A stretch of 33,193 nucleotides of DNA from Actinomycetes bacterium. GTDB lineage: Bacteria; Actinomycetota; Actinomycetes; Streptosporangiales; Streptosporangiaceae. Below, one piece after another: positions 30,310 to 33,193 of this stretch (its first letter is position 1; every line of letters begins with the position of its first letter). The translations under genes and the position numbers were made by a program. The notes under the pieces are model-generated. The model did not search any database, was not told the DNA's origin, and saw only the letters and a program-made list of their open reading frames with translations. The stretch spans positions 1 to 33,193 of the forward strand of contig JAJYUU010000051.1 of NCBI GenBank assembly GCA_021792405.1. Direction: 5' to 3'.

Positions 30310-31365
30310 TCAGGGCTGAGGTTTCACGTGAAACAAACTCGCCTCGACGGATGCCGTCAGCCGGTCAATGTCCTCCGCGGATGTATCGAAAGCTGTCATC
30401 CACCGGACGACGCAGGTCCCGTCGTCATTGCGTGACCATACATGGACGTTGAAGTCCTGCTCCAGCTTCAGCGCGACTCTCCCGTCAAGCGTGGTGAATA
30501 CGCCGTTGGATTGAACGGGGTAGGACAGCCGAACTCCCGGCAGGCCGGCAAGCGCGCCGCCCAGCCGGGCCGCCATCTCGTTCGCGTGGCTGGCTGCGCT
30601 GAGCCACAGCCCGTCCTGTAGTAGCGCCACCGCTTGCGCTCCGAGGAACCGCATCTTCGAGGCGAGCTGCATCTGCTGTTTCCGGTGATACTGAGCGCCG
30701 TCAGCTAGTCGCTCGTTCATCACGAGCACAGCCTCGACGCCGAGCGCGCCGTTCTTTGTGCCGCCGAAGCTCAGCACGTCCGCGCACGCTGCGATGTCAG
30801 CTAGCGAGCAGCCGAGGTAGGCCGCGGCGTTTGCGATCCGGGCTCCGTCGAGGTAGATCAGTAGGCCGTGCTCGTGCCCGAAGGCCCGGAGTTCGCGCAA
30901 CTCATCCAGCGAGTAGCAAGTTCCGAGTTCGGTTGCCTGAGCGAGCTGGATCACCCGCGGTTGTACCCGGTGCTCGTCTCCGCGGCCAGTCAGCTTGCTC
31001 GCAACGAGCCGGGGACTCAGCTTGCCGTCCGGAGTCGGCACCGAGAGCAGCTTGCAGCCGAGCACGCGTTCGGCTGCTCCGCACTCGTCAACGTTCAGGT
31101 GAGAAGAGTCAGCGCAGATCACTGCCTCGAAAGGGCGGACCATCAGGCTCAGGCCGAGGATGTTCGCCGCTGTCCCGGTGAAGACCAGGTGGGCGCTGTG
31201 CGCTCCACTCAGCTCGCACAGGCGGGTTAGCGCGGTCCGCGTGACATCGTCGTCGCCGTACGCCCGGGCATCGCCGTCATTGGCCGCGATGATCGCCGCC
31301 ATTACGGCCGGGTGCACGCCTGCATGGTTGTCGCTGCCGAAGCTCTTGCCCGATATGTTCGCCAC
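30310..31365 (-). CDS. ltaE: Low-specificity L-threonine aldolase
   Basis: 351 residues from a GTG (ANISGKSFGSDNHAGVHPAVM). It is a PLP enzyme of fold type I that splits L-threonine or L-allo-threonine to glycine and acetaldehyde. The start GSDNHAGVHPAVM is the family N-terminus. LVFTGTAANILGL contacts the cofactor, YLDGARIANAAAYLG carries the Asp-Arg pair, and SFGGTKNGALG has the Schiff-base lysine. Its last codons (SLFHVKPQP) are written by a parS site at 30320-30335. Confidence 0.93.
   Translation of the reverse strand: MANISGKSFGSDNHAGVHPAVMAAIIAANDGDARAYGDDDVTRTALTRLCELSGAHSAHLVFTGTAANILGLSLMVRPFEAVICADSSHLNVDECGAAERVLGCKLLSVPTPDGKLSPRLVASKLTGRGDEHRVQPRVIQLAQATELGTCYSLDELRELRAFGHEHGLLIYLDGARIANAAAYLGCSLADIAACADVLSFGGTKNGALGVEAVLVMNERLADGAQYHRKQQMQLASKMRFLGAQAVALLQDGLWLSAASHANEMAARLGGALAGLPGVRLSYPVQSNGVFTTLDGRVALKLEQDFNVHVWSRNDDGTCVVRWMTAFDTSAEDIDRLTASVEASLFHVKPQP
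30320..30335. promoter_or_regulatory. parS: parS centromere site
   Basis: GTTTCACGTGAAAC at 30321-30334 is the exact 14-bp parS core. The flanks give 15 of 16 bases of the TGTTTCACGTGAAACA consensus. It lies inside the 3' end of the threonine aldolase gene, about 1.15 kb from parB. ParB loads here and spreads to organise the origin region. Confidence 0.95.
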
Positions 31366-31448: not shown

Positions 31449-31490
31449 TAGCTCGCCGTGACGGCGGCGCGGCGCGGTCACGGCGAGCTA
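31449..31490. terminator. Perfect 14-bp inverted repeat over the parB stop
   Basis: TAGCTCGCCGTGAC at 31449-31462 and GTCACGGCGAGCTA at 31477-31490 are exact reverse complements with a 14-bp GC-rich loop. The parB stop TGA (31478-31480) falls in one arm. A strong hairpin would end parB transcription before the aldolase. There is no U-run. Confidence 0.75.
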
Positions 31491-32458
31491 ACGTCGCGGC
31501 GAGCTTCCCTGTGGGCCGGAGCCAGGTCCGGCGAGATGCTGCGGACTATTCGCTCAAGGTCATCGAGCGAGGCGAATTCGACGACGATCTTGCCCTTGCG
31601 CTGGCCAAGCTCGACCTTCACCCGGGTCTCGAAGACGTCGGACAGCCTGTCTGCCAGGTCTTTCAGGCCGGGAGCGACCGGAACCTTGGCGCCCGGCGCT
31701 CGCGGGGTTTTGGCGGGCCGGACGCCAATGGCGACGAGTTCCTCGGTTGCCCGCACCGACAGGCCTTCGGCCACGATTCGGTGGGCCAACTGCTCCTGCG
31801 CTACCGGATCCTCGACGCCTAGCAGCGCACGTGCGTGCCCAGCGGTCAGGACGCCTGCCGCAACGCGCTTCTGAACCGCCGGCGGCAAGTGCAACAGCCG
31901 GATTGTGTTGGAAATGTGCGGTCGCGAGCGGCCCACGCGACGCGCTAGCTCCTCATGAGTCGCCGCGAAGTCGTCCAGGAGCTGTTGATAAGCCGCTGCC
32001 TCTTCGAGCGGATTCAACTGCTCGCGGTGCAGGTTCTCCATCAAGGCTTCGCGGAGCATGTCATCGTCTGAGGTCTCGCGCACGATCGCTGGGATTACGT
32101 CGATCCCGGCGAGCTGGCAAGCCCGCCAGCGGCGTTCCCCCATGATCAGCTCGTACCGGCCGGACGAGGTCCGGCGCACCACGACAGGCTGCAGCAACCC
32201 GACTGCCTCAATGGACGCGGCGAGCTCGGCCAGCGAGTCCTCATCGAACACCTGCCGCGGCTGCCGCGGATTGGCCGCGATCGCGCTCACGGCCACTTCC
32301 TCCAGGTAAGCGCCGGGGATACCGACCGCTGGCTCGCCGTCCTCCGCTGGCCGCGCCGCCCACTGGTTCACCCCACCTGGCACCGAGACCGAAGCGGGCG
32401 GACCGGTCGGGATCAGCGCTCCCAGGCCCTTGCCGAGCCCGCGCTTTGGTTGCGGCAT
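31478..32458 (-). CDS. parB: Chromosome-partitioning protein ParB
   Basis: 326 residues from the ATG at 32458 ([19 protein letters not shown]), preceded by GAGGAGAGAG. An upstream in-frame ATG at 32566 is rejected because the family starts here. The ParB/Srx CTPase domain includes [45 protein letters not shown] and [22 protein letters not shown] (GxRR and ENxxR boxes). The HTH is [29 protein letters not shown] and recognises parS. It acts as a CTP-gated clamp that spreads from parS. Normally parA is immediately upstream. Here the parB upstream region holds a 341-bp gap and then a divergent HNH-type gene. Confidence 0.97.
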
Positions 32459-32799
32459 CCTGACTCTCTCCTCGCCGTACGGTCGCCAGGTCAGTGGCTT
32501 ACCCACGTTGCCATGGCAGCGTGACATCGCACTGCCCATACTGCCAGCAACCCGACTAGCTGCCACACGATCCCCGAGCGGTTCCCAGGCAATCTGGCGC
32601 TCGGCCGAGTCTGTTTCGCTGGCGAGCGATCACTGCGGGAGCGCGCCGACCGTGCCTCTGCCGACCGAGACGAGCACAAACTGGTGGCAGTACAGTCGAA
32701 TGATCAGTCGATTGGCGTGTGCTGCCAGAGCTAGAATCGAATACATAAACGGACGCGAACGCGCAGCCGGCTTGTCGTGGCGGCGGAGGGAGGGCGGCG
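32459..32799. promoter_or_regulatory. parB / HNH-gene divergent intergenic region
   Basis: These 341 bp separate the divergent parB and HNH-type genes. No plausible parA coding segment is visible in any frame. The right part has an A/T-rich stretch (TAGAAT at 32732-32737 and ATACAT near 32741) that may be a promoter for the HNH-type gene. A 6-bp inverted repeat, TCGATT at 32708-32713 and AATCGA at 32735-32740, spans it. The exact promoters are not clear. Confidence 0.5.
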
Positions 32800-33193
32800 A
32801 TGACGGATCCGGGCTGGGACATTCCCGGCGTTCCGCGTGAGTCCCCTCCTGATGGTGGCGCGCCTGCGGCGGACGGTTCGGTGCTGTCGGCTGGCGCTTC
32901 GCCGGCCGCGTCGTCGCCGTCTGCCGCCGGTTCGCCGCAGCGGGGGCGCGGGCCGGGACGGAGGGCGCGGGCGGGGAGCGTGTCGGCGTCTGCTGGGTTG
33001 TCGGCGGGCGCGTTCGCCGGGTTAGCGGATGCCGGTCCGGGTGCTGATCGGCATTCCGGCTCGTTCGTCGGCGCCGCGCCTGACCCGGCCAGCGTTCGGG
33101 TGACCGATCCGGCGCAGGCGCTGGCGTACCTGACCGCGGGACTGGAGTTCCTGGCCCATGCGGATCCGGCGGGGTGGAGTGAGGGGGAGCAGG
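32800..33193 (+). CDS. DUF222/HNH endonuclease-like (13E12 type) protein, partial
   Basis: The N-terminal 131 residues from the ATG at 32800, preceded by GGAGGGAGGG; the gene runs off the window. Residues 1-90 are a Ser/Ala/Gly/Arg-rich low-complexity region (MTDPGWDIPGVPRESPPDGG). The segment LAYLTAGLEFLAHADPAGWSEGEQ resembles the start of the DUF222 domain of the 13E12-repeat family, whose members carry a C-terminal HNH nuclease and occur in many copies in some actinobacterial genomes. The HNH part is not in the window, so the family call is inference. Confidence 0.55.
   Translation, partial: MTDPGWDIPGVPRESPPDGGAPAADGSVLSAGASPAASSPSAAGSPQRGRGPGRRARAGSVSASAGLSAGAFAGLADAGPGADRHSGSFVGAAPDPASVRVTDPAQALAYLTAGLEFLAHADPAGWSEGEQ

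Follow-up and report, generated by a model that had tools for sequence, protein, structure and literature searches.

The closest described counterpart of the locus analyzed here is the par locus of Mycobacterium. As far as the excerpt of PMC2346475 extends, it comprises rsmG (gidB), parA and parB, identical genes in the same order and on the same strand as in our case, and it shares with our locus a ParA with a long N-terminal extension (putative here) and a parS core in the parA region. The same excerpt describes an operon of the two par genes in M. bovis BCG and M. smegmatis, with promoters also found upstream of each gene. The other counterpart is the REP13E12 family of M. tuberculosis, which the excerpts of PMC10589994 and PMC13061034 describe, under the names used there, as DUF222 followed by a C-terminal HNH domain, present in several similar, dispersed copies with signs of exchange. 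In the excerpted text of PMC10589994, REP13E12/HNH/DUF222 sequences are counted among repetitive elements.

The window that we analyzed is a stretch of 33,193 nucleotides and represents the entire contig C31 of a draft genome of 314 contigs (G000). Unlike the mycobacterial locus as excerpted in PMC2346475, parA and parB are separated here by about 2.1 kb containing an antisense DUF222/HNH gene, and one parS core is situated beyond parB on its 3' side; in mycobacteria the parS cores are given as upstream of parB. Unlike the M. tuberculosis REP13E12 copies, as far as they are covered by the excerpts of PMC10589994 and PMC13061034, this copy sits between parA and parB. We regard the HNH-split parAB as an infrequent but well-supported form of a familiar locus, brought about by a repeat gene of an already described kind. 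The split seems to be of long standing and to be tolerated, and its importance is probably modest. No such parA-parB split was described in those titles and abstracts that were listed for open-access papers on 13E12/DUF222/HNH or on parA/parB organization.

The complete parB open reading frame occupies positions 31478 to 32464 of the window on the minus strand and encodes 328 amino acids. Its product matched the Pfam profiles ParB_N, HTH_ParB and ParB_C over their cut-offs, corresponding to the N-terminal, helix-turn-helix (HTH) and C-terminal dimerization domains of chromosomal ParABS, and also TIGR00180 (parB_part) over its cut-off. A longer frame is possible from a GTG at 32566; we took the ATG at 32464 as the start because it is common to the relatives. 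What sets the locus apart from a standard ParABS system, in which parA directly precedes parB in one operon, is the intervening HNH gene. By pattern search we located a perfect 14-bp parS core, GTTTCACGTGAAAC, at positions 30321 to 30334 (the reversed-pattern control gave 0), and a second perfect core in the 5' part of the parA frame on another contig (C290:1480-1493). Exactly two perfect 14-bp cores were present in each of the assemblies of G000 and the congeneric genome G004. In G004 both are on the par contig, 4.0 kb apart and flanking this region; those of G000 are divided between C31 and C290, which speaks for the joining of these two contigs. Compared with the 16-bp consensus, the same two G000 sites differ at 1 and 2 positions, and G000 has a further site, with 2 mismatches to the 16-bp form, on contig C303. 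The ParB proteins of G000 and G004 are 94% identical, and the dN/dS ratios between the two genomes (0.22 for parB and 0.09 for the parA core) are those by which we judge that both genes are evolving under purifying selection.

Divergent from parB, the 5' part of the HNH gene (131 amino acids) starts with an ATG at 32800 and runs on the plus strand to 33193, where it is cut by the contig end. Taken alone, this fragment gave no Pfam match at an E value of 0.01. It does, however, share 71% identity with residues 1 to 133 of a full-length paralogue on contig C197 of G004, which matches both DUF222 and HNH over their cut-offs, so that the original prediction of a 13E12-type (DUF222/HNH) gene was correct. 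Neither domain itself falls inside the window. The DUF222 domain is expected in an unassembled part of the gene, and the HNH domain was recognized by Pfam over its cut-off in the presumed 3' part, at C290:3-392 of G000, where the frame is open from base 3. A search of the full-length G004 relative against PADLOC returned no match at an E value of 0.001, and against NCBIfam it returned only a sub-threshold match to IscB (19 bits versus a cut-off of 175).

The right end of the window is an assembly break, at which C31 stops. Contig C290 of G000 carries the 3' part of an HNH gene at its start, followed by parA and rsmG, both on the minus strand. A profile search of G000 with the ParA ATPase family PF13614 gave 7 matches, among them this parA next to the HNH end on C290. 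This ParA has rsmG next to it and is 98% identical to the ParA adjoining parB in G004. We rejected another ParA-like gene as the missing parA (C274:11901-12431, on a contig starting in a DUF222 gene), because the HNH copy of C274 pairs by its flanks with contig C270 of G004 and not with the par locus. Across C31 and C290 we infer the order parB (minus), HNH gene (plus), parA (minus), rsmG (minus), with a parA-parB distance of about 2.1 kb and an HNH gene of about 1.69 kb, of which the middle 0.9 kb is deduced from relatives. Two full-length G004 copies size the unassembled piece at 900 to 903 bp; the join between C31 and C290 has no read-through in G000, these roughly 900 bp being absent from the assembly, and the par-locus copy could be interrupted mid-gene within them. 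The absence of parA next to parB, as originally noted, is true of the window but is due in part to where the contig stops, as parA follows just after the HNH gene on C290. Across the inferred join, the rightward extension that had been proposed leads to the 3' end of an HNH gene and then to parA and rsmG.

The same arrangement is found in G004, also a draft, whose record DAHVAR010000206.1 is metagenome-assembled: rsmG, parA, an opposite-strand HNH piece and parB are all on one contig. The HNH gene of G004 is a frameshifted remnant of about 0.4 kb at the same site as in G000. Its 5' portion is gone and the remaining frame is broken by frame changes, whereas both assembled ends of the gene are open in G000. 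The parA and parB genes of G004 remain open, with a gap of 923 bp between them. Identity between G004 and the C290 side is 87 to 90%, through the spacer and the 3' end of the HNH gene, and between G004 and the window side it is 81 to 85%, up to just within the repeat unit. Since the remnant occupies the same site, the insertion would predate the split of the G000 and G004 species. This sister pair, with a gene open at both assembled ends in one member and a remnant in the other, represents a datable insertion of a 13E12-type gene.

We surveyed the parA-parB junction in relatives. Among 60 genomes searched (G000 included), parB was matched in 57, and the loci of the 56 other than G000 were fetched. 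From another collection we added the best 80 of 564 named loci, giving 136 loci, 125 of them distinct. A same-strand parA upstream of parB with a gap of 300 bp or less was found in 111 of the 125 distinct loci, or in 112 when L049 is counted, in which the end of parA lies at the contig start, 21 bp before parB. Gaps exceeding 300 bp occurred in nine loci: G004 with its HNH remnant, L127 with a methyltransferase-like frame, and seven others (L056, L067, L082, L100, L101, L109 and L123) in which no HNH match was found. In L110 and L112 parA is convergent with parB. The script reported no parA in three loci, namely, L049, L061 (from G010, where parA is actually convergent) and L052, which is uninformative as its sequence ends 111 bp upstream of parB. 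Separately, we observed that the gaps in L067, L123, L056 and L082 are approximately 0.5 to 0.8 kb.

Among these loci, G000 and G004 were the only ones in which an HNH gene separated the two par genes. Nine congeneric genomes, including G000, were available, with parB detectable in eight; in the six besides G000 and G004 the parA-parB gaps are 21 to 207 bp, leaving these junctions without an HNH gene. It is because relatives show such empty sites that we favor an insertion over another rearrangement. Although parA does lie beyond the HNH gene here, this is not how relatives at large are arranged, so that the proposed split is not refuted on this count.

Based on the order on C290, the single contig of G004 and the 112 of 125 loci with adjacent genes, the suggestion that parAB was split by an inserted HNH gene is supported. 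We consider it highly probable that, in the ancestor shared by G000 and G004, a dispersed 13E12-type gene was inserted antisense between parA and parB, moving the two genes about 2.1 kb apart in G000. ParABS would have stayed in use, given the constraint on parA and parB and the parS sites next to the locus, and parB would have been transcribed on its own. The HNH copy of G000 would later have exchanged sequence with other copies by gene conversion, and that of G004 would have decayed to a remnant while parA and parB stayed separated.

An alternative is that a wider rearrangement, rather than the insertion of a single gene, opened the gap and happened to bring the HNH gene with it. Rearranged loci with convergent parB and parA do exist in related genomes (L110, L112 and G010), and no target-site duplication was established. 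The repeat unit extends from approximately position 32768, where the boundary is clear, or 32705 as judged by eye, to about the HNH stop codon, where the copies stop matching. By blastn boundaries, its part upstream of the gene comprises positions 32705 to 32799 (plus strand), of which 32768 to 32799 are clearly common to other copies. A weaker shared stretch, TAGAATCGAAT/TATAATCGAAT, at 32732-32742, was noted in a by-eye comparison and is a candidate promoter of the HNH gene. With exact matches only, the longest terminal inverted repeat was 7 bp, and 216 of 300 shuffles contained one of that length. Nor could we establish a target-site duplication at the par-locus HNH gene, for which the original prediction had proposed to look: the best direct repeat on both flanks, the 9-bp CGCGCAGCC, was reached in 23 of 300 shuffles and is suggestive at most, and its occurrence on the parA side lies some 50 bp beyond the HNH stop codon, outside the sequence that matches other copies. 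A cruder comparison of the flanks gave five shared 8-mers (three separate matches, including GCTGGCAGT) against a shuffle mean of 0.9, given without a spread. The flanks share slightly more than average shuffles do, and we build no claim on this. Against a wider rearrangement, the order and orientation of parA and parB are the usual ones in both G000 and G004, with rsmG before parA and the HNH gene as the sole extra, and the homology to other HNH copies starts and stops near the gene. We therefore regard this alternative as improbable and retain the insertion of a single gene.

A second alternative is an assembly artefact, in which HNH repeats made a false join and parB truly adjoins parA. The contig breaks do fall within the repeat: C31 and C4 stop at the identical base of copies that are about 96% identical, this base being the last of C4 (blastn), and C31 breaks off at this point because both contigs end inside near-identical repeat copies. 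However, C31 contains the parB-HNH junction and C290 the HNH-parA junction, and a single contig of G004 has matches to the two. The order on that contig argues strongly against an artefact, and this independent assembly also speaks against a join error; we consider an artefact very improbable. That the HNH gene was co-opted as a divergent regulator or antisense partner in the control of parB or of segregation, and was kept for that function, would fit its two open assembled ends in G000, the HNH domain recognized at one of them and its orientation (divergent from parB and convergent with parA), but this is scarcely credible given that in the sister species the gene has decayed, with both par genes still open, and that the six other parB-bearing congeners have no HNH gene there.

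The inserted HNH gene is one of several dispersed copies in G000. We obtained six DUF222 matches in this genome and six matches to the full-length G004 protein, some of which are, in either search, halves of one gene. When the half-copies were paired by their flanks, C4 (5') and C274 (3') of G000 corresponded to C270 of G004, and C75 (3') corresponded to C197 of G004; this assignment of the related half-copies to other loci is a further point in favor of the C31-C290 join. For C75, no 5' half turned up in the G000 assembly. A DUF222 gene on C298, cut at the contig start, was set aside, as it has no DNA match to the par-locus repeat unit. Over the 5' part, the par-locus copy and C4 share 96.7% identity, against 88.0% between C4 and its orthologue in G004, C270; the 5' flanks of C4 and C270 are 95.0% identical over 522 bp. 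Over the 3' part, the par-locus copy and C75 share 99.0% identity, against 92.1% between C75 and its orthologue in G004, C197. Since paralogues are closer to each other than orthologues, gene conversion between copies in the G000 lineage is suggested, as judged on short stretches of about 300 and 425 bp. As a counterpoint, the 3' part of the par-locus copy is 94.8% identical to C270 of G004, about equal to its 94.1% identity to C274 of G000. Its identity to the same-site G004 remnant is 87.4%, a value that is low partly through the decay of the remnant. The simplest reading of these comparisons would be sequence exchange among the HNH copies in the G000 lineage. In M. tuberculosis, gene conversion among REP13E12 loci is reported in the excerpt of the preprint PMC13061034.

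The insertion bears on the expression of parB. Between parB and the divergent HNH gene is an intergenic region at positions 32465 to 32799; the non-coding stretch originally described is thus present but measures 335 bp and not 341 bp. On the window side, query bases 1-325 match G004 at 81%. With the insert between the two genes, parB is probably transcribed from the roughly 0.3 kb left before it. By alignment we identified a block, GTTGCTGGCA(G/A)TATG(G/A)GCA, at positions 32532 to 32551 on the minus strand, which begins matching 67 bp upstream of the parB ATG and which we propose as a candidate regulatory or promoter element of parB. The block is common to four of the eight congeneric genomes with parB (G000, G004, G003 and G001), and was not seen in G002, G006, G007 and G008, whose parA-parB gaps are 21 to 67 bp. 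Since G003 and G001 have unsplit loci, a promoter of parB itself could be older than the insertion, and its transcription may proceed via this preexisting block. A scan of positions 32440-32830 for sigma-70 consensus promoters and terminators returned none; for sigma-70 it was uninformative, as it was nearly blank in shuffles too. That parB has a promoter of its own is plausible and seems likely. As parA and parB are neighbors in nearly all loci examined, this natural split offers a test of the need for their co-transcription.

How the HNH gene spread is a matter of conjecture. The most likely agent may be the nuclease itself, acting as a selfish, homing-like element. Homing HNH endonuclease genes resemble the gene described here in their HNH nuclease domain and in being gene-sized units without obvious transposon ends; DUF222 is not known as a homing-enzyme domain. 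We offer as a tentative and rather unlikely proposal that DUF222/HNH genes are homing-like, selfish genes copied by double-strand-break repair, that one of them landed between parA and parB, and that the insert was tolerated because parB had long had its own promoter. If true, a long-standing parB promoter would also explain the splits by inversion and by a methyltransferase gene in relatives.

In L110:4174-6011 (Trebonia sp.), L112:5001-6863 and L218:14-2248 (G010), where parB and parA are convergent, a frame resembling by eye the lyase of the window precedes parB, and an inversion seems to have split the operon differently in these genomes. In L127:3579-4586, from a Nocardiopsaceae metagenome-assembled genome, the methyltransferase-like frame between parA and parB is on the opposite strand and matches PF05175 over its cut-off. 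The DUF222/HNH protein is patchily distributed, with a match at an E value of 1e-30 in 10 of 37 genomes. At the same threshold G010 has 24 matches, several of them at contig ends or fragmented, followed by genomes with 9, 7 and 6, and may possibly show a burst of DUF222/HNH copies.
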